Of a DNA stretch of 36,873 nt, positions 8,999 through 36,233 are shown piece by piece (within the stretch, counting starts at the first letter, position 1; each line of letters opens with the position of its first letter). Under the pieces are notes generated by a model. That model ran no database searches and had not been told where the DNA came from. It saw only the letters and a list, made by a program, of their open reading frames with translations. Position numbers and translations under genes: made by a program. The stretch lies in IMG/VR virus record IMGVR_UViG_3300033996_001188, positions 1-36,873 of that record. One strand, given 5' to 3'. The stretch is from a virus.

Positions 8999-9446
8999 GG
9001 TTTTCTCTCATTAGTGCGAATGGGTCGATATTAGTTTGCAAATTTACATTCTTTTCCACCTCCGATTTTTCTCTAAGTCCATGAGTAGCAGATAATATAA
9101 ACTTCGCAAAGCCTGCATTTACTTTGTCATGTAAAGCGTATTTTGTGAGCCTAATTTCCTGTATTTTTTCTGCTTTTTTATAAAGTTTGAAACACGAGGG
9201 GAATTTGTCCTTCAAATAACTGATTAATTCAGGGTAAATTTTACCCCCGTAATCACGTAATTTTGGATTATCAAAAAGAAATTCTTCATACAAAAAATTC
9301 AAGTTGCTTTCATTCATCCAGTCCAATAAGTCATTAAACAGCAATAGCGATACTTCCTCCGTCCAAATCTCTTTGTCTGGTTGATAATCGCTCGAAAACT
9401 GTTTGCCTGCTTTTGGCATCTCACCTTTTTTGAATCTTGTATCCAT
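8964..9446 (-). CDS. Probable terminase small subunit
   Basis: This 160-residue, largely helical protein lies immediately upstream of and overlapping the large terminase gene, the standard place for the small subunit that recognises the packaging site. The N-terminus is basic (RFKKGEMPKAGKQF). The middle contains a YALHDKVNAGFAKFILSATHG segment similar to the C-terminal core of Bacteroidota DNA-packaging proteins. I cannot point to a clear HTH, so the call depends on position and general look. Confidence 0.65.
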   Translation of the reverse strand: MDTRFKKGEMPKAGKQFSSDYQPDKEIWTEEVSLLLFNDLLDWMNESNLNFLYEEFLFDNPKLRDYGGKIYPELISYLKDKFPSCFKLYKKAEKIQEIRLTKYALHDKVNAGFAKFILSATHGLREKSEVEKNVNLQTNIDPFALMRENHAINSETEKGT

Positions 9447-9455
9447 AATGAAAAA

Positions 9456-9551
9456 TTAAAATGGTGCTGTCCATGTAATCCCCTTAGGTGCTGTTGTTCC
9501 TGCGCTACGTCCGCCCGAACGTCCACCGCCACCGCTTCCAGATTTTGCCAT
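9456..9551 (-). CDS. Small glycine-rich protein (31 aa)
   Basis: The short frame starts with ATG at 9549-9551 and reads MAKSGSGGGGRSGGRS then a TTAPKGITWTAPF tail. It runs across the last codons of the broken PLD-like gene in another frame and ends 10 bp before the small terminase start. Gly, Ser and Arg make up most of the first half. The arrangement fits a translated small gene in a tightly packed operon. Function is unknown. Confidence 0.45.
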   Translation of the reverse strand: MAKSGSGGGGRSGGRSAGTTAPKGITWTAPF

Positions 9552-9795
9552 TAGATAGATTTTTAAAAAATTGATAATTGAAATCATATAACTCTTTATT
9601 CTCTTGTATAATCATTTGTTCAATATTTGTAGAGCTTCTAAGATTAGCTGAACCATGAATACAAACGTGTCCACCTTTTTTAGTTTTTATTAGCACTGAT
9701 TTGCTGTGATTGTCAGAATAATAAACATTGAAATTATCATTGTGCTTTTCGGATAAATCCGATAGTAATTTGATTGTAGTAGAATGCTTTTTTTG
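9505..9795 (-). pseudogene. C-terminal part of a PLD-like protein, cut off by an in-frame TAA
   Basis: This frame (96 codons, then stop) continues the frame of the gene at 9796-10176 without any shift. The only break is the TAA at 9796-9798. It encodes NHSKSVLIK followed by HGSANLRSS, the H-x-K plus GSxN pattern of phospholipase D/HKD nucleases, although the usual Asp after H-x-K(x4) is not present. No good start codon precedes it. It is either the lost half of a dead gene or reached by stop-codon readthrough. Confidence 0.7.
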
Positions 9796-10176
9796 TTAAG
9801 TTCTAAGAAAGTATTTTGATAAAACTAAATTGATTTTTTCTACAAAATTATTATCAATTAGTGAATCTAACATTTCAAAATTATCATTTCCTCCAGATAA
9901 TGATATTACTGTTAATTCCTCAACTTCCAAGCTATTAACAGTTATAAACGCACCTATAAAATCACCAAAAATAAAATTACCTGCTAAATTTACATAAACA
10001 CATTCGCCTCTTTGGATATGAATGTCATGTGCTAATTTTAAGGCGTTTTGATAAAAAACATCTTTAGATTTGATATTGTGATTTTCTAATTTTATGAATT
10101 TGTTTGAATCTTCATCAGCTTCAATGTTGAAATCAAAGTTAATATCATCTAGTTGTAAAACAAAATTATCATTCAT
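9796..10176 (-). CDS. N-terminal part of a PLD-like protein with its own promoter
   Basis: The 126-residue product looks like the N-terminal half of a single HKD-family domain: acidic start, helix at about 40-55, then alternating beta strands ending in SKYFLRT before TAA. The downstream 96 codons in the same frame carry the missing H-x-K and GSxN motifs. The gene has a private promoter (10196-10227), lies between the nuclease/helicase and packaging genes, and is AT-rich, as moron-type cargo often is. As annotated it lacks its catalytic half, so the short form is probably inactive. Confidence 0.6.
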   Translation of the reverse strand: MNDNFVLQLDDINFDFNIEADEDSNKFIKLENHNIKSKDVFYQNALKLAHDIHIQRGECVYVNLAGNFIFGDFIGAFITVNSLEVEELTVISLSGGNDNFEMLDSLIDNNFVEKINLVLSKYFLRT

Positions 10177-12154: not shown

Positions 12155-14557
12155 CTAAAATGGTTCAGTTATGTCTGTTTCTGTTATTTTGTTTTTTGAA
12201 ATATAAAAATACCTTCCGATGTTATCAATCATATTGTTAGCATAGAAGTAGTTGTAATGCTCACAATAAAGTTTAACCCACTTTTTAAACCTCTTTATTG
12301 GTAGTTTATAGCTTCCATTACGATAGTCAGGATAAGCCTTCAAAAACTTTTCAAATATAGCTTCGTTGTAGTGCCTTGTATCAAACTCTAAATTACCATC
12401 GCTAGTCCATTCAATGAACTCCGTTGATGTTTCACCAATGAGCTTTCGTAACTCTAAATTCTTATGCTTTTGTTTTTGTAGTCCATTTTGCAAATAGTAC
12501 TGAATACACTGGATCATAAAGTTGTCAAACCGTTGCCACTCTTCATTACTCCAATCATCAAAAAGGAGGTGCCCGAATTTATCCTGTGGTGAGTAGTTCG
12601 AATTGAAATAACTAGATAGTTCAAGTTCGTGTTTTCGCGCGTCAAAGCTCCCCCCATTCCCTTTTATAGTATAGTTTGTTGTTATTACTATCTTTGGTGA
12701 CTTTGTAACTGGAAGTTTAATCGCTCCCTGCCCTTTGTATTCAATTGTCAAGCCTTCGGTAATAATAGAAAATAAGTCCTCAAAAGGGAAGTTCTTTTTT
12801 ACATCATCATAGACTAGCACTTGACAGTCGGCTTTTACTGTTTGATATGTGAATTGTCCGTTAAGGTCTATTTTTTTACCGTTCAAAGATTCTAGTTTTT
12901 TTAGGTGCTTTATTCCATTAAAGAATAGACCCTTACCACTCCTCCCGTTCGGCTCGTCATCGCTAATCATTTCATCATTCAGAATGATAGCCTTATTGTT
13001 TGCCTGTGTTTTGAATGAATGAAGTAAGTAACCAATGACAGATTTAAAACAATTATAGCTGTGTTCATCCTGTCCAGATATGTACCAAATGAACGAACGG
13101 AACTCACCGCCATGATGGTCAAAATAATGATAATCTCTATCAATTACACTATCCTTCCAAACATAACTATCTAAATCTAGGTAGTCAATAGTCTTTGAGT
13201 AATCAACACCAACTTCAACAACACAATTTTTGAAATAGAGATAGCATTTATCCGCTGTGTCTGTTTTTAGTTTAATATCAACCGCTTCAATCATATTCAA
13301 GAACTCGTTTGAAAAAAACTTGGTATTTACAGCCATAAAGTCAAACGGTGCAAGTCCTATATTTTCACGTGTTTTTAAATCTTTCAAAACAAAGTCTTTG
13401 ATTCTATCCCTATTGGTAAACTCGATTAGGCTCTTATCCTTTTGAACAAAGATGAAAGTTTCAGAAGTACTTTCAGGATAAAACTTCATAAAGTTGTTTG
13501 ATATAAGATACTGTTCAAACTTATGAGCCACTATTGATATTTTACCTTTATCGTTGACCGCCCAAAATACATCTGTTGTGTCGGGTGATTTAAGGCTTGT
13601 AAGGATTAGCTCAAAGTTTTCATCTTTTACAATTGGATTGTTTGTAGATTCAAGTTCGCTTCGTATCTCTTTGGTCGTTTTGCCATTTGATACAGATTTT
13701 TGAAGCATTCTTTTTGTTTCATTGTCCTCAAATGCCTTTGTGTTGAACTCGCTTTTATTTCTTTTGTAAGCTGACTTTACAGCAGTTTCAATTTCTTTTG
13801 CACTAAAGCCTTTTTGAGCGTACTTTTGGAGGTAACTGATAGAAGTGTATTCATTAACCCCGAACGCATTAAGAGCGGATGCAAACCGATAGATAGCATC
13901 ATTTCTTTGCCCTTCGGATACTGTGTACTTTTTATCAAACCATTTTTGGAGTAATCCGATAGTAATACTTTCAGACTGCACTGGAATAGAAACATCGTAG
14001 CGACTTGCACCCAAATTTTGATATTCTTCCTCTTCACATTTAGTCCAAATTTCGGCTTGTTCATTTATGTAAATGTCGGGGTCGTATGATTCAAAACAAA
14101 GTCTTGATATGTCGCTAGTTTTGCTATCCAAATGTACATCAGCATACTTTGAACACAAAGCCCTATACATTGCCCTGTATTTGGTATGATCATCAGCAAC
14201 TCGGAACACAGCCTTTACACCTACACCGCTAGGAGAAATGAAACAAGCGTACAAACATGGGTCTGAAATTAGATTGTCTTTGATTTGGTTAGCATCCTCA
14301 ATTCCGCTTAGTTTATCAAAGTCTAAACAAGCTAGTCCAGAAAATTTAATAAGTGATTTTTCATTCCGATATGAAAAAACGCCTCCGAAAGAACATGCAG
14401 GAAGTTGATTCTTATAAACTGGGTCTTTTGTTTCTCTGTATTTAAGTATTAGTTCTGTTGCTGGGCTTCCATTCTTAATCCTATCAAAGAATACTGATAC
14501 ATCTTTTATGAATGGTGACTCTGGGGAGGTTTTTTTCTTGAAAATTGATATTTCCAT
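12155..14557 (-). CDS. Primase-helicase (VirE/BT4734-like primase fused to SF3-like ATPase)
   Basis: The N-terminal third resembles VirE N-terminal/BT4734-like proteins related to archaeo-eukaryotic primases, with CLDFDKL near 77-83, SPSGVGVKAVFRV near 108-120 and DISRLCF near 149-155. A C-terminal ATPase follows with Walker A GRSGKG (538-543), Walker B VLVYDD (580-585) and sensor KIVITTNY (622-629), as in SF3 or D5-like helicases. It would open and prime DNA at the adjacent origin. I chose ATG at 14555-14557 (800 aa): an in-frame TTG 54 bp upstream would put the RNA hairpin at 14580-14624 into the coding region. Confidence 0.88.
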   Translation of the reverse strand: MEISIFKKKTSPESPFIKDVSVFFDRIKNGSPATELILKYRETKDPVYKNQLPACSFGGVFSYRNEKSLIKFSGLACLDFDKLSGIEDANQIKDNLISDPCLYACFISPSGVGVKAVFRVADDHTKYRAMYRALCSKYADVHLDSKTSDISRLCFESYDPDIYINEQAEIWTKCEEEEYQNLGASRYDVSIPVQSESITIGLLQKWFDKKYTVSEGQRNDAIYRFASALNAFGVNEYTSISYLQKYAQKGFSAKEIETAVKSAYKRNKSEFNTKAFEDNETKRMLQKSVSNGKTTKEIRSELESTNNPIVKDENFELILTSLKSPDTTDVFWAVNDKGKISIVAHKFEQYLISNNFMKFYPESTSETFIFVQKDKSLIEFTNRDRIKDFVLKDLKTRENIGLAPFDFMAVNTKFFSNEFLNMIEAVDIKLKTDTADKCYLYFKNCVVEVGVDYSKTIDYLDLDSYVWKDSVIDRDYHYFDHHGGEFRSFIWYISGQDEHSYNCFKSVIGYLLHSFKTQANNKAIILNDEMISDDEPNGRSGKGLFFNGIKHLKKLESLNGKKIDLNGQFTYQTVKADCQVLVYDDVKKNFPFEDLFSIITEGLTIEYKGQGAIKLPVTKSPKIVITTNYTIKGNGGSFDARKHELELSSYFNSNYSPQDKFGHLLFDDWSNEEWQRFDNFMIQCIQYYLQNGLQKQKHKNLELRKLIGETSTEFIEWTSDGNLEFDTRHYNEAIFEKFLKAYPDYRNGSYKLPIKRFKKWVKLYCEHYNYFYANNMIDNIGRYFYISKNKITETDITEPF

Positions 14558-14571
14558 AAATAGAGGTTTAT

Positions 14572-14661
14572 AAAAACAAACACCCCGAGAAGAGGGTGTA
14601 AGGCGACCCAACTAATCGAGGTGTTGTAAATTCTTTTAACCGCGCCTTACTTCGGTATTTA
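14572..14661 (-). ncRNA. Kissing-hairpin small RNA/leader, copy A (before the primase gene)
   Basis: Written on the plus strand: hairpin 1 has stem ACCG/CGGT (14639-14642 with 14653-14656) and a loop holding CGCCTTAC (14643-14650). Hairpin 2 has a 9-bp outer stem with one G-U pair (14580-14588 with 14616-14624), an inner stem GGGT/ACCC (14594-14597 with 14606-14609) and the 8-nt loop GTAAGGCG (14598-14605). The two loops are perfectly complementary. On the transcribed minus strand hairpin 2 is followed by a U-rich run (14580-14572), terminator-like, 15 nt before the primase ATG. Transcription probably starts near 14661, so the RNA is about 90 nt. The structure is seen in sequence and the role is unknown. 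Confidence 0.7.
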
Positions 14662-14667
14662 CAGATG

Positions 14668-14698
14668 CAAATATACAAACAAATTTGATAAAAACAAA
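14668..14698 (-). promoter_or_regulatory. Promoter for RNA element A and the primase operon
   Basis: On the minus strand TTTG (14695-14698) is followed after 19 bp by TATATTTG (14668-14675), a full Bacteroidota consensus. The expected start, about 7 nt downstream, lies a few bases before hairpin 1 of the kissing RNA. The promoter abuts the iteron region, so origin-binding proteins could also control it. Confidence 0.8.
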
Positions 14699-15000
14699 GC
14701 ATTACGCAAAATTACGCAAATTAGTATCAAAAAATAATTTGCGAAATGCTAAAGTGTTGATAATCAGGACAAGATTTCGCAATTACGCAAATACGCAACT
14801 TTTTGGAAATTTTCAAAATAAAAAAAAACGAAAAATGCGTTTTCTATAGACCAAACTGGGAAATTTTCCGTAATTCCGTAGTTTTTTTTTGTAATCATTT
14901 GATAATTAGATTTTTGGCATTTCGCAACTGTTTTTTAGACCCTCATTTGCGTAGTTTTTCCGTAGTTTTGCGTAATATTTGCGTAGTTTTCCGTAATAAA
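14699..15000. other. Putative replication origin with iterons
   Basis: About 300 bp of AT-rich non-coding DNA hold a repeat built on TACGCAAA and its complement TTTGCGTA, with a TTTTCCGTA variant. Left side: ATTACGCAAA at 14701-14710, 14711-14720 and 14782-14791, with ATACGCAAC at 14791-14799. Right side, inverted: GCGTA/CCGTA cores with GTA at 14951, 14962, 14972, 14983 and 14993, spaced 10-11 bp so that all face one side of the helix. Two CCGTA copies lie at 14868-14880. The region is flanked by primase-helicase and by a DnaA domain IV-like gene, the usual setting of a phage origin. Confidence 0.65.
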
Positions 15001-15003
15001 AAA

Positions 15004-15017
15004 GGGGCAAATGCCCC
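15004..15017 (-). terminator. Intrinsic terminator after the leftward recombination/SSB operon
   Basis: The palindrome GGGGCAAATGCCCC (transcribed as GGGGCATTTGCCCC) starts 6 bp after the stop of the DnaA-like gene. On the minus strand it is followed by six T residues, making a classical intrinsic terminator. It separates this operon from the iteron region and the primase promoter. On the plus strand an ATTTTCT tract offers only weak termination. Confidence 0.8.
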
Positions 15018-15352: not shown

Positions 15353-15731
15353 CCTCTGGCTCTTCCTGTGCCTGTGCCTGTGCCTGTGCCTGTGGCTCGT
15401 TTGGTTGAGTAGGTGTATTGTTTCCGAATTTAGACAGCTCCATATTTCCGATTATCGGAATGTTTTTCTTTTGCTCATCACTCAATGCGTTGTAACTTGC
15501 CTTTTCAAGTGATTGTTTGGCAAAGTGAGTATCATTATATTGACCAATTTGCTTTTTCTCTGTTATTTCTAAATTACAATATAAAGGTATATGTCCATCT
15601 TTATCTGGTTTACCCTCATAAAATTCAGAAACAGGAATACACAAACAATCTACTTTCTCAAACTTCCCTTGTATCGGAAAGATAAAAGCCTTGTTTAATT
15701 TTTTGACATTAATTTTTAATCTGTAATTCAT
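15333..15731 (-). CDS. SSB-like single-stranded DNA-binding protein
   Basis: The 132-residue product has a beta-rich N-terminal part, a low-complexity Gln/Ala/Pro linker and an acidic tail ending EPEGDGLPF. An acidic C-terminus with a terminal Pro-Phe is the hallmark by which SSB proteins recruit partners. The N-terminal domain does not look like bacterial OB-fold SSB, so this may be a phage analogue. The Gln-Ala linker comes from a perfect hexamer repeat (15365-15394). Its neighbours are recombination genes and a DnaA-like gene. Confidence 0.65.
   Translation of the reverse strand: MNYRLKINVKKLNKAFIFPIQGKFEKVDCLCIPVSEFYEGKPDKDGHIPLYCNLEITEKKQIGQYNDTHFAKQSLEKASYNALSDEQKKNIPIIGNMELSKFGNNTPTQPNEPQAQAQAQAQEEPEGDGLPF
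15365..15394. repeat. Five tandem CCTGTG hexamers in the SSB-like gene
   Basis: Five perfect copies of CCTGTG encode an alternating Gln-Ala linker between the DNA-binding part and the acidic tail of the SSB-like protein. Slippage would add or remove QA pairs without changing frame, so linker length may vary between isolates. Confidence 0.9.
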
Positions 15732-16254
15732 TTTGTTTGTTTTTTTTAGTTATATAATCAAAATTAGCTTCTTCCTCTGTTTTAAAATGTTTTCTGATAA
15801 TTTTTTCACCTATCCTTATTCTACTAACATAACAATTTCTATCATGTCTATAGTGTACACCAATATATTTAGAGCTTTCTTTGTTTCTTAAAATTTTTTT
15901 ACTTAAAAAAGTATTATCTCGTTTTGTTACTATTTCTAAATTTTCAATACGATTATTCAGTTTATTTTCATCAATGTGATTTATAACAAATTTATGTCCT
16001 TCAACTTTATGTTTTAAAAAACTTTCAGCTACTAAATGATGTATTGGTTTTGTTTTACGAACATTATATTTACATAAACCTACAGAATAATAACCATGAG
16101 ACCCAATAGTTGGATTAAGTATTCTCTCTAAAACAACTTGTTTTGCACCGTTTTTTTTATAAATAATGCGTTTTTTACTCTTTACATTACCTAGATTACT
16201 AATCTCATAATAATCTTCATATCCTAATATAGGAAGAAATATTTCTTGTTTCAT
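15709..16254 (-). CDS. NUMOD4-HNH-AP2 homing endonuclease
   Basis: Starting at ATG 16252-16254 the protein has 181 residues. NUMOD4 lies near the N-terminus (LGYEDYYEISNLGNVKS), followed by an HNH nuclease with HH at 72-73, NHID at 92-95 and N101, and an AP2-type DNA-binding domain at about 126-172 (SSKYIGVHYRHD). This is the layout of free-standing phage homing endonucleases that cut allelic sites and spread their own gene. A longer frame to 16305 would run through the terminator hairpin of RNA element B and is unlikely. The gene is more AT-rich than its neighbours and has its own promoter between the exonuclease and SSB-like genes, as an inserted element would. Confidence 0.85.
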   Translation of the reverse strand: MKQEIFLPILGYEDYYEISNLGNVKSKKRIIYKKNGAKQVVLERILNPTIGSHGYYSVGLCKYNVRKTKPIHHLVAESFLKHKVEGHKFVINHIDENKLNNRIENLEIVTKRDNTFLSKKILRNKESSKYIGVHYRHDRNCYVSRIRIGEKIIRKHFKTEEEANFDYITKKNKQNELQIKN

Positions 16255-16257
16255 AAT

Positions 16258-16353
16258 AAAAAAAATGCCCTTAATCAAATCATAGGGGTCTGACTTCCTA
16301 ATCAATGAAAAAGGGCTTTATTAGTTTAATTGCTTATTGTCAGACCGCAATTA
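16258..16353 (-). ncRNA. Kissing-hairpin small RNA/leader, copy B (before the homing endonuclease)
   Basis: Plus-strand coordinates: hairpin 1 has stem AATTGC/GCAATT (16328-16333 with 16347-16352) and a loop holding GTCAGACC (16339-16346). Hairpin 2 has outer stem GCCCTT/AAGGGC (16267-16272 with 16311-16316), inner stem TAGG/CCTA (16283-16286 with 16297-16300) and a loop holding GGTCTGAC (16287-16294). The two loop segments are perfect 8-nt complements. On the minus strand hairpin 2 is followed by eight U residues (16265-16258), and the nuclease ATG comes 3 nt later. The architecture is the same as copies A and C with unrelated loop sequence. Confidence 0.7.
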
Positions 16354-16359
16354 TATATA

Positions 16360-16390
16360 CAAATATAATATTTTATATCTGTATATCAAA
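16360..16390 (-). promoter_or_regulatory. Promoter for RNA element B and the homing endonuclease
   Basis: On the minus strand TTTG (16387-16390) is followed after 19 bp by TATATTTG (16360-16367). The -33 box lies inside the last codons of the upstream exonuclease gene. Transcription should start at about 16353, at the foot of hairpin 1. Confidence 0.78.
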
Positions 16391-20860: not shown

Positions 20861-20970
20861 CCGAACCGGAAGAAAACAAGCTAATGGCTTACAGCGCACT
20901 GGTTGCACTGGTGATAGTGATTTCAATGGTGATAGTATTTTTATTCACTTATAAACTATTATTCACATGA
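20857..20970 (+). CDS. Small membrane protein (37 aa)
   Basis: The 37-residue frame has an acidic N-terminus (MTEPEENK) followed by one long hydrophobic helix (ALVALVIVISMVIVFLF). It starts in an ATGA overlap with the gene before it and ends in an ATGA overlap with the methyltransferase after it. That tiling is strong support for a real gene. Confidence 0.65.
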   Translation: MTEPEENKLMAYSALVALVIVISMVIVFLFTYKLLFT

Positions 20971-21623
20971 TACAGATAGACAACTTCACATTCCATAATG
21001 CTGACAATATGGAAATAATGGCTCAATATCCTGATAAGTTTTTTGATTTGGCGATTGTTGACCCGCCTTATGGAATAAATGTGAATGTTTCAATGGGTAG
21101 AAGGAAAGGCAATAAAAAAAGCGATTATCACAAATTCTCTGGCAATGATTCGTCTATTCCGAATGATGATTATTTTAAAGAATTATTTCGTATTTCAAAA
21201 AATCAGATTGTATGGGGAGGTAACTATATGACCCAATATTTAAAACCAACTCCATGCTGGATTTTATGGGATAAAGGATTTTCGGAAAATGTAACCTTTG
21301 CGCAGTTTGAAATGGCTTGGACTTCGTTTTCTTCAAGTGCAAAAAAGTATGATTTTAATGCTGCAGCAAATAATGAAAGAATACATCCAACGGAAAAACC
21401 GAAAGATTTATACGCTTGGATATTATCGAGATATGCACAACCTAATCAAAAAATCCTCGACACTCATTTAGGTAGTGGCTCAATAGCTTTAGCAATCGAC
21501 AAAGCAAATAAACTCGACAATATGAATTTAGAGTTTGTAGGTATTGAGTTAGACACGGAGTATTTTGAAGCGAGTATGAAACGATTTAATAATTACAGAT
21601 TACAAAAAACTATATTTGAATGA
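20967..21623 (+). CDS. DNA N6-adenine methyltransferase, copy 1 (beta class)
   Basis: The 218-residue protein has the catalytic motif DPPY at residues 32-35 (motif IV), a variable middle of about 125 residues, then motif I-like DTHLGSGS near 165-172 and GIELDTEYF. Motif IV before motif I is the beta-class order, in which the middle is the target recognition domain. It likely methylates phage DNA against restriction. The first 37 residues differ from copy 2 (23684-24343) at one position and the last 55 also at one, while the middle is clearly diverged, so target sites probably differ. It overlaps both neighbours by 4 bp. Confidence 0.88.
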   Translation: MIQIDNFTFHNADNMEIMAQYPDKFFDLAIVDPPYGINVNVSMGRRKGNKKSDYHKFSGNDSSIPNDDYFKELFRISKNQIVWGGNYMTQYLKPTPCWILWDKGFSENVTFAQFEMAWTSFSSSAKKYDFNAAANNERIHPTEKPKDLYAWILSRYAQPNQKILDTHLGSGSIALAIDKANKLDNMNLEFVGIELDTEYFEASMKRFNNYRLQKTIFE

Positions 21624-22683: not shown

Positions 22684-22701
22684 AAAATAGTATTATCTTT
22701 G
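22669..22701 (+). promoter_or_regulatory. Promoter for RNA element C
   Basis: TATCTTTG (22694-22701) is a perfect -7 box, identical to the rightward early promoter. The best -33 candidate is TTG (22669-22671) with a 22-bp spacer, slightly long. The -33 lies within the end of the upstream gene. Transcription would start about 7 nt downstream, just before hairpin 1. Confidence 0.6.
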
Positions 22702-22707
22702 TGATGT

Positions 22708-22796
22708 ATTCGACAGGTGGAGCTGTCTAATCAATTAACACACACACTAGCCCATTGGCGGACGGTACTCCACTACCCGAAGCCGTTGGGCTTTTT
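22708..22796 (+). ncRNA. Kissing-hairpin small RNA/leader, copy C
   Basis: Hairpin 1 is GACAG-GTGGAG-CTGTC (22712-22727) with a closed 6-nt loop. Hairpin 2 has an outer stem of 11 positions with one mismatch and one G-U pair (22749-22759 with 22782-22792), a 4x4 internal loop, an inner stem GGTA/TACC (22764-22767 with 22774-22777) and the closed 6-nt loop CTCCAC (22768-22773). The loops GTGGAG and CTCCAC are exact complements. A U-run (22792-22796) follows, so the RNA can end as an intrinsic terminator. The gap of 137 bp between genes contains nothing else. Confidence 0.72.
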
Positions 22797-22820: not shown

Positions 22821-23051
22821 ATGCTATTAAAAAAAACAACCAAACTTTTCAAAGGTGATAAGGTAAAGGAAGGTGATTATGTTAGATTCCTATCATCTGA
22901 TTCAGAATTTATAAATTGTCAAGTAAAAAAAAGAACATGTGATAATGTTCATTGCGAAACGGGCAAAAAAATGAAAAAAGGTTCTTTGTATATTCATAAT
23001 CAGTTTTTTGATATAAAAGACTATCGAAATGCTGAACCGCAACCTTTTTAG
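22821..23051 (+). CDS. Hypothetical protein (76 aa)
   Basis: A small basic protein (KKTTKLFKGDKVKEGDYVRF) with an SH3- or KOW-like beta start, two central Cys, and a C-terminal acidic/aromatic part. It begins 25 bp after the terminator-like end of RNA element C, so its expression may depend on readthrough there. The family is unknown. Confidence 0.6.
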   Translation: MLLKKTTKLFKGDKVKEGDYVRFLSSDSEFINCQVKKRTCDNVHCETGKKMKKGSLYIHNQFFDIKDYRNAEPQPF

Positions 23052-23114: not shown

Positions 23115-23687
23115 ATGAACACAACAAAACTAATTATTGCAATCATCATAGGTGGATTGCTAGGTATCGGACTGACAATGTTATTTGCACCTCCAAAGAT
23201 TATTGAAAAGCCTATTGAAGTAGTAATCAAAGAACCTTCAAACGAATGGCGCAAACAAGATGCTTATTTAGATAGTTTGCAGACCGCTGACAGCCTTAGG
23301 ATTGCTTATTTGAGTAAACGTATCACTCAAAGAGAAAACACTATAAATCGCCTTAAAACGATAATTTTCAACGACACGACTAAAACGACAAATGAAGCTG
23401 ACAGCATTATACGGTCGCAAGATAGCACAATCAATGATTTAGGAAATGAAGCAGAGATATATTCTCGTATGTTGCACTCAGCAAAGCAACAAATAGCACT
23501 TAGAGATACAGCAATAGCTGAACGTGATAGCACTATAATGCTTTGTAATGAGATAATGAAAAAGCAATCAACTACTATTGCCGAAATGCGAAACAAAGCT
23601 AAAATAAAAGAGTTCTGGCAAAAAGTAAAAGATACAGGGTTAATCATCAGTAGTACAGCAATAGCAATTTTAATTTTGGTAAAATGA
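23115..23687 (+). CDS. Membrane-anchored coiled-coil protein
   Basis: The 190-residue product has an N-terminal membrane segment (IIAIIIGGLLGIGLTMLF), a long polar coiled-coil middle and a C-terminal hydrophobic segment (GLIISSTAIAILILV). Anchors at both ends recall spanin-like or superinfection exclusion proteins, but the location in the early region argues against a dedicated lysis role. It overlaps the second methyltransferase start by 4 bp. Confidence 0.65.
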   Translation: MNTTKLIIAIIIGGLLGIGLTMLFAPPKIIEKPIEVVIKEPSNEWRKQDAYLDSLQTADSLRIAYLSKRITQRENTINRLKTIIFNDTTKTTNEADSIIRSQDSTINDLGNEAEIYSRMLHSAKQQIALRDTAIAERDSTIMLCNEIMKKQSTTIAEMRNKAKIKEFWQKVKDTGLIISSTAIAILILVK

Positions 23688-24343
23688 TACAGATAGATAA
23701 CTTCACATTCCATAATGCTGACAATATGGAAATAATGGCTCAATACCCAGATAAATACTTTGATTTGGCAATTGTTGACCCACCTTATGGAATAAAAGCA
23801 AGTAGCGGAGCTTCTACAAATGGAACAATGCGTAAAAAGATAGCAAGCGGAGAAATTAAAGGTGGAAGTTGGGACGACTCAATACCAACGGAAGAATATT
23901 TTAATGAGCTTTTCAGAATTTCAAAAGAGCAAATAATTTGGGGAGGTAATTATTTTGGATTACCAGCAAATAAATGTTTTTTAATATGGGATAAAGGCGA
24001 AAGCATTTATAACCGTGATTTTGCAGAGTGCGAAATGGCTTGGAGTTCATTTGATAAATGCGCACGTATTTTCAAAAAATTTCCAAATCAAAATGATAGA
24101 ATACATCCAACTCAAAAACCAGTTGATTTATATGATTGGGTTATTCAAAGATTTGCAAAACAAGGCGATAAAATTCTTGACACTCATTTAGGCAGTGCAT
24201 CAATAGCTTTAGCAATAGACAAAGCAAATAAACTCGACAATATGAATTTGGAGTTTGTCGGGATTGAGTTAGACACGGAGTATTTTGAAGCGAGTATGAA
24301 ACGATTTAATAATTACAGATTACAAAAAACTATTTTTGAATGA
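23684..24343 (+). CDS. DNA N6-adenine methyltransferase, copy 2 (beta class)
   Basis: The 219-residue paralogue of the gene at 20967 has the same DPPY motif and C-terminal DTHLGSAS/GIELDTEYF ends. DNA at both ends is nearly identical, about 110 bp at the start and 170 bp at the end, while the central target region has little similarity. Apart from GGS in the middle and a WDKGE segment, the copy 2 target domain is its own. It likely modifies a different sequence. It overlaps the upstream membrane gene and the DUF4406 remnant by 4 bp each. Confidence 0.88.
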   Translation: MIQIDNFTFHNADNMEIMAQYPDKYFDLAIVDPPYGIKASSGASTNGTMRKKIASGEIKGGSWDDSIPTEEYFNELFRISKEQIIWGGNYFGLPANKCFLIWDKGESIYNRDFAECEMAWSSFDKCARIFKKFPNQNDRIHPTQKPVDLYDWVIQRFAKQGDKILDTHLGSASIALAIDKANKLDNMNLEFVGIELDTEYFEASMKRFNNYRLQKTIFE

Positions 24344-35732: not shown

Positions 35733-36233
35733 TTATTTGCGTTTTAGGTTTTTACGTTCTTTTGCTTCATTCTTTAAATCTGCAACAGTTTTTACAACAT
35801 TGCTAGATGAATTTACCGTCGATAGACGTGTTGTCGGTTCAAATGTACTCTTAACTTGAGTTTTCAACTCATTAACTAAGTTTACAGCTTCAACTAGATT
35901 AGTTTTAGCTTCACCAAGTTCATTAGTCAAATCCTCAATCATAGTAGTGTCAGGTGCTGGCATGTATTCAGCACTCAAAGCTATCAATACGATAACTGTT
36001 GCACCTTCAACTTCAACAACTGTTACTACTTTACCATCAGCAGTGGTAAACTCACCCGCTGGGCTGGCTGGCATTCCTACGGCGATATTTTCGCTTTCGG
36101 AAGTGAAAATAACAGTACCATCCTCAGTAAGGTGGTCGTAATTTTCTGTTGCTACTTCCTCAACGGATGGGGCTTCATTCTTTGCGAGAAAGTTTTCCAA
36201 ACGTGCAAGAAGTGATTTTTTTGTTTCACTCAT
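35733..36233 (-). CDS. Nested scaffold protein (internal start of the protease gene)
   Basis: An in-frame ATG at 36231-36233, preceded by an AAAGAAAACAAA stretch, opens a 166-residue frame (MSETKKSLLARLENFLAKNE) shared with the end of the protease. It is helical and acidic-basic, like a scaffold. This resembles lambda C/Nu3, where an internal start gives a separate scaffold. The internal start is inferred, not proven. Confidence 0.5.
   Translation of the reverse strand: MSETKKSLLARLENFLAKNEAPSVEEVATENYDHLTEDGTVIFTSESENIAVGMPASPAGEFTTADGKVVTVVEVEGATVIVLIALSAEYMPAPDTTMIEDLTNELGEAKTNLVEAVNLVNELKTQVKSTFEPTTRLSTVNSSSNVVKTVADLKNEAKERKNLKRK

Follow-up and report, generated by a model that had tools for sequence, protein, structure and literature searches.

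What kind of RNA is specified by positions 14,572 to 14,661 of this virus record, where the loop of a 5' hairpin is exactly complementary to the apical loop of a following terminator-like hairpin, and how does it relate to the gene that begins directly behind it? The stretch of DNA analysed here as a whole (the window; 36,873 bases, with genes for tape-measure protein, terminase, portal, head protease, endolysin and helicase) had been reported to hold three such loci, and all three (copies A, B and C; Table 1) were located where the preliminary description had placed them, each with promoter, 5' hairpin, kissing loops, terminator hairpin, U-run and the start codon of an ORF. The loop complementarity claimed for them is indeed exact (8 nt in A, 8 nt in B and 6 nt in C), and loops of different copies pair with one another over no more than 4 nt. 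In all three, no more than about 15 nt separate TAnnTTTG from the 5' stem that follows it, the start codon comes 21 nt (A), 12 nt (B) or 28 nt (C) after the foot of the terminator stem, and RNA folding predicts both hairpins (z of −1.8, −3.0 and −3.3 for A, B and C). The window also contains a perfect palindrome, GGGGCAAATGCCCC (15004-15017), with U-rich tails on both strands, which by its sequence is likely a bidirectional terminator.

Table 1. Coordinates of the kissing-loop leaders, their elements and the genes behind them, in the window and in cultured Flavobacterium phages.
Record	Feature	Position	Strand	Basis or remark
Window	Copy A, whole RNA	14656-14579 plus U-run	minus	
Window	Copy A, Bacteroidota -7 promoter element TATATTTG	14668-14675	minus	sequence; element upstream of most members
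Window	Copy A, 5' hairpin	14639-14656	minus	loop contains GTAAGGCG (14650-14643)
Window	Copy A, 3' terminator hairpin	14579-14625	minus	outer stem 10 bp, inner stem GGGT/ACCC, apical loop CGCCTTAC (14605-14598)
Window	Copy A, U-run	14571-14578	minus	sequence; terminator-like site
Window	Gene after copy A, 800 aa primase	12155-14557	minus	PF08800 BT4734-like N, PriCT_1; ATG start
Window	Copy B, whole RNA	16353-16267	minus	
Window	Copy B, promoter element TATATTTG	16360-16367	minus	sequence
Window	Copy B, 5' hairpin	16327-16353	minus	loop contains GGTCTGAC (16346-16339)
Window	Copy B, 3' terminator hairpin	16267-16316	minus	apical loop GTCAGACC (16294-16287)
Window	Copy B, U-run	16258-16265	minus	sequence; 8 U
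Window	Gene after copy B, 181 aa HNH homing endonuclease	15709-16254	minus	NUMOD4, HNH_3; ATG start
Window	Copy C, whole RNA	22712-22792	plus	
Window	Copy C, promoter element TATCTTTG	22694-22701	plus	sequence
Window	Copy C, 5' hairpin	22712-22727	plus	loop GTGGAG (22717-22722)
Window	Copy C, 3' terminator hairpin	22749-22792	plus	GGAC/CGAA internal loop, inner stem GGTA/TACC, apical loop CTCCAC (22768-22773)
Window	Copy C, U-run	22792-22796	plus	sequence; terminator-like site
Window	Gene after copy C, 76 aa protein	22821-23051	plus	no assigned function; ATG start
hattifnatt9-1	Leader copy	9372-9458		before helicase gp34
hattifnatt9-1	Leader copy	13311-13387		before NUMOD4 endonuclease gp41
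snusmum6-1	Two leader copies			
elemoF_6-3D	Leader copy	9313-9215		before replication-initiation genes
FCV-1 (F. columnare phage)	Leader copy	about 40,365-40,445		before NUMOD4/HNH gp61
FCV-1 (F. columnare phage)	Leader copy	35,875-35,971		before gp52

When both strands of the window were scanned for a 5' hairpin with 4 bp or more, loops that kiss over 6 nt or more, an inner and an outer stem and a U-run, A, B and C were the sole matches in the 36,873 bases, whereas 200 dinucleotide shuffles gave an expectation of 0.2 matches per window. For kisses of at least 8 nt, two were observed versus 0.005 expected; the chance of about 1 in 65,000 quoted earlier for an 8-nt match holds for one alignment, but these shuffles are the proper control. 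The observation on the three copies is real, and their structure is firm.

Instead of forming a three-member family, A, B and C belong to a widespread architecture that we encountered at about 50 loci in IMG/VR phages and cultured Flavobacterium phages. Its common plan comprises the TAnnTTTG promoter, a 5' hairpin no further than about 15 nt from it, a linker of 10-34 nt, the terminator hairpin, a U-run and a start codon; the kisses span 6-10 nt, and the combination of a GC-rich hairpin with a flush U-run that defines an intrinsic terminator recurs across these kissing-loop leaders. The nearest relative by primase (L002, about 70% identity) has the same structure before its primase gene, in entirely different letters and with a 10-nt kiss. 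Further members came to light at loci encoding related proteins, and the cultured Flavobacterium phages were reached through protein searches; DNA-level searches of named phages with the window, or with one member RNA, gave no meaningful match.

Many members share an invariant UAGUA/CGAA internal loop that separates the two stems, outer and inner, of their terminator hairpin, with AGUA/GAA unchanged in 28 aligned members. The loop fits the AGUA/GAA consensus for the bulged-G internal loop (sarcin-ricin, loop E), although the likeness is confined to the one subclass and absent from A–C. A covariance model for the 3' hairpin of the subclass (model R1) scores its true members at 34-59 bits; A reaches 13.6 bits (E 1.2) and B 11.5 bits (E 3.7), C is not among the matches listed, and the window copies thus stand outside the subclass. 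Each of the 24 phage records with this subclass holds exactly one subclass copy, and the extra copies in FCV-1, like both copies in hattifnatt9-1, are of other types; this unlikeness of copies within one genome may be kept against cross-kissing or recombination. Since the subclass pattern gave only two chance matches in 257 Gb of bacterial and archaeal genomes, the subclass looks largely restricted to virulent phages. In L091 (6125-6155) and L195-L197, a mini-hairpin with a GNRA tetraloop, GCCGAAAGGC, precedes the 5' hairpin, with GTCGAAAGAC in L195.

The proposal that pairing but not sequence is kept was borne out by the relatives. In a parsed set of 42 members with 34 different kissing sequences, a member's own two loops match over at least 6 nt in 33 of 34 cases versus 27 of 1122 swapped combinations, and in a blind subset in 22 of 23 versus 18 of 506; the loops are free in sequence yet complementary. 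The preliminary description had advised building a covariance model and looking for homologues, and both bore fruit. In the alignment of the 3' hairpin, 87.5% of cells are paired (59% after shuffling) and the covariation score is 0.774, compared with 0.219 for shuffled alignments and at most 0.33 in every slid control; the outer stem shows both-sided changes at every pair, and the inner stem is 100% paired, with compensated variation at two of the three pairs. Further loci emerged when a covariance model restricted to the 3' hairpin was used for searching, and a kiss of at least 6 nt was present in all ten that were checked, single 6-nt kisses being individually weak here (most p about 0.04-0.2). 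This strong covariation in relatives upholds the earlier assignment as a structured RNA whose intramolecular kiss is conserved.

The presence of the kiss in all members partly reflects how members were selected, but sets assembled blind to it show more than selection. Three pattern sets that demanded the UAGUA/CGAA internal loop and a U-run, and ignored 5' hairpin and kiss, returned 37 distinct sequences; 29 have a kiss of 6-10 nt, a TAnnTTTG-like promoter and the helices, and the rest are apparently chance matches. A scan that required neither U-run nor promoter found 20 promoter-positive matches versus 2 in shuffles, nearly all with U-rich tails, and 23 promoter-negative matches versus 17 in shuffles, none with a U-run. 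In a set blind to both U-run and kiss, a long outer stem occurs in 6 of 79 stretches, each of which also shows the kiss, the promoter and a full U-run. Finally, the 700 nt upstream of 80 loci chosen by primase similarity gave eight scan matches, seven of which follow the complete plan; shuffles gave 0.0.

A same-strand ORF follows the leader in all 43 members tested, at a distance of 6-45 nt except in L002 (173 nt). The genes encode primases, SNF2/DEAD-type helicases, replication initiators (Lin1244-like and DnaD-like, the latter assigned by eye), HNH and GIY-YIG endonucleases, Bro-N and small uncharacterised proteins. Free-standing homing/HNH-type endonuclease genes occur repeatedly with the leader (15709-16254 in the window; L089, L133, L177, L175 and L199), which suggests that the leader travels with such genes or holds their expression low. 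Beside the copy A promoter lie four copies of iteron-like direct repeats (AATTACGCAAAT and variants, 14700-14801), and L002 has ACGCAAA repeats downstream of the leader RNA (about 9795-9990); iteron-like repeats near the primase gene possibly mark a replication origin. Beyond the 76 aa gene of copy C follow an unassigned ORF (23115) and a DNA methyltransferase gene (23684), the latter being one of two related N6/N4 DNA methyltransferase genes that flank this copy on the plus strand (20967-21623 and 23684-24343).

With a promoter upstream and a terminator in the leader just before the start codon, the gene would be made from that promoter only via read-through, and a leader attenuator is therefore the simplest reading. 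We consider it probable that the leader is a cis-acting RNA with a built-in intrinsic terminator, for which promoter, two hairpins, kissing complementarity, U-run and ORF position speak at the sequence level. Host-type RNA polymerase would initiate at TAnnTTTG and the 5' hairpin would fold; the apical loop of the second hairpin, once transcribed, would kiss the 5' loop over 6-10 bp, whereupon the outer stem would close beside the U-run and most transcripts would stop at about 90 nt, before the start codon, so that the downstream gene would be expressed from read-through only. Capped by the kiss, the terminator hairpin would become part of a co-linear rod about 30 bp long, which the linker of 10-34 nt would bridge. 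We infer that termination takes place, that the kiss forms and stabilises, guides or times terminator folding, and that read-through increases during infection, for instance when RNA polymerase is altered in a way that depends on phage or host; the gate might be opened by a factor directed at RNA polymerase, by a direct effect on the enzyme as exerted by put RNA (see below), or by a ligand.

The preliminary description had offered a stand-alone small RNA or a terminator-attenuator, and it is the second half of this alternative that the gene positions favour, as an ORF 6-45 nt past the terminator leaves no space for a separate gene promoter. A trans-acting RNA of about 90 nt, with its proximity to a start codon being incidental, would be in keeping with the leader's own promoter and terminator, its compact fold and the wide gap in L002; it appears unlikely, however, given the closely following same-strand ORF in the other members and loops and stems that are unrelated even inside one genome, hence providing no common target sequence. 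The further suggestion of a decoy, or of a trigger or inhibitor of host defence, finds no support: the downstream genes serve mostly replication and recombination or encode homing endonucleases, and the leaders share no sequence able to bind a common target.

A cis-acting antiterminator would invert the role of the leader: the kissing rod would bind RNA polymerase, which would then ignore the leader's own and later terminators. The model for this is the put RNA of phage HK022, about 70 nt long with two stem-loops, located downstream of early phage promoters and known to promote read-through with no phage protein required (PMC9378689). The kissing-loop leaders resemble it as phage cis RNAs of similar length with two hairpins after phage promoters and before replication genes. 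Yet put sites have a common sequence and no built-in U-run terminator, whereas the leaders share no sequence and carry such terminators, and a loop-loop kiss is not mentioned for put RNA (PMC9378689), which makes a put-like antiterminator distinctly unlikely. A 5' UTR element governing mRNA stability or translation start, not termination, would account for a hairpin at the extreme 5' end and for a start codon 6-45 nt beyond the hairpin base in Bacteroidota, which do not use Shine-Dalgarno sequences (PMC6847099). We regard this as quite improbable, as the gap to the start codon is variable and the U-run lies flush with the stem even where the scan did not require one.

In plasmids IncB/ColIb-P9, two leader hairpins before a replication gene pair through their loops to form the RepZ pseudoknot. 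Replication copy control by an antisense RNA, as in that system, would be attractive in view of the loop-loop pairing, the many leaders before replication genes (primase, replication initiators) and the iterons adjoining copy A, but the leaders possess a terminator, homing endonucleases, Bro-N and other genes also stand behind them, and antisense TAnnTTTG promoters are not enriched across the leaders (5 seen versus 6.0 expected); such copy control is thus very improbable. Short matches are frequent in AT-rich DNA and looser scans do yield chance matches, but chance hairpins and loop matches are refuted by the covariation data and contradicted by the blind pattern sets, the swap test and the covariance-model loci, leaving this explanation with practically no probability.

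If the leader is an attenuator, how might it switch? Terminator riboswitches, the T-box and the trp leader likewise combine promoter, structured leader, intrinsic terminator and an immediately following gene start, but no leader peptide, T-box or Rfam aptamer is present in the kissing-loop leaders, whose terminator apical loop kisses the 5' hairpin instead. Nor was a classical antiterminator between linker or 5' hairpin and the terminator enriched: a fraction of 0.28 of the positions in the outer 5' strand pair with upstream sequence, compared with 0.33 in shuffles. In L022 (335-350, TGTTGCAGA), L068 (2318-2326, AATGCAG) and L010 (about 1425, ATGCAG), the 5' loop sequence is repeated just past the terminator near the start codon; as an alternative partner for the apical loop, such a downstream copy is no general feature (the mean match is 3.67, with 3.75 expected). 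From the 3' half of copy A (14580-14599, minus strand), another small terminator hairpin, ACACCC/GGGTGT, can arise that competes with the inner stem for the same bases, so that only one of the two can form; a small alternative terminator from the 3' strands is not general either (−3.13 versus −3.39 kcal/mol). Linker length does not track rod length (correlation −0.19). With linkers of 10-13 nt, geometry suggests that a kiss together with a full outer stem may be strained, and the relation between the two may hence be competitive rather than supportive. Tentatively, the leaders could represent a widespread class of phage gene switch in which the kiss (joined in the largest subclass by the bulged-G loop) is a tertiary-structure gate on the terminator that dispenses with a classical antiterminator, the copies in one genome being kept unable to pair with each other so that every gate closes on itself alone; conceivably, such a gate would bind RNA polymerase or some factor, or else compete mechanically with terminator closure.

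In accordance with the earlier remark that no Rfam family was recognisable, a search of Rfam 15 (gathering threshold or E up to 1) matched the leaders to no family. One large published catalogue reportedly lists predicted phage RNA structures; our literature search found no description of the leader, an unnamed listing in that catalogue being possible. We conclude, with firm support, that the leader is a real, widespread structured RNA of Bacteroidota phages, and apparently one undescribed so far. If the attenuator reading is true, a terminator apical loop locked to a 5' hairpin would be a novel design of attenuator and would offer RNA engineering a compact building block. To our knowledge, almost nothing is known about transcription control in Bacteroidota phages. 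A common covarying RNA at a fixed position before replication and homing-endonuclease genes provides a handle on the timing of their switch-on, one that can be tested in cultured Flavobacterium phages.
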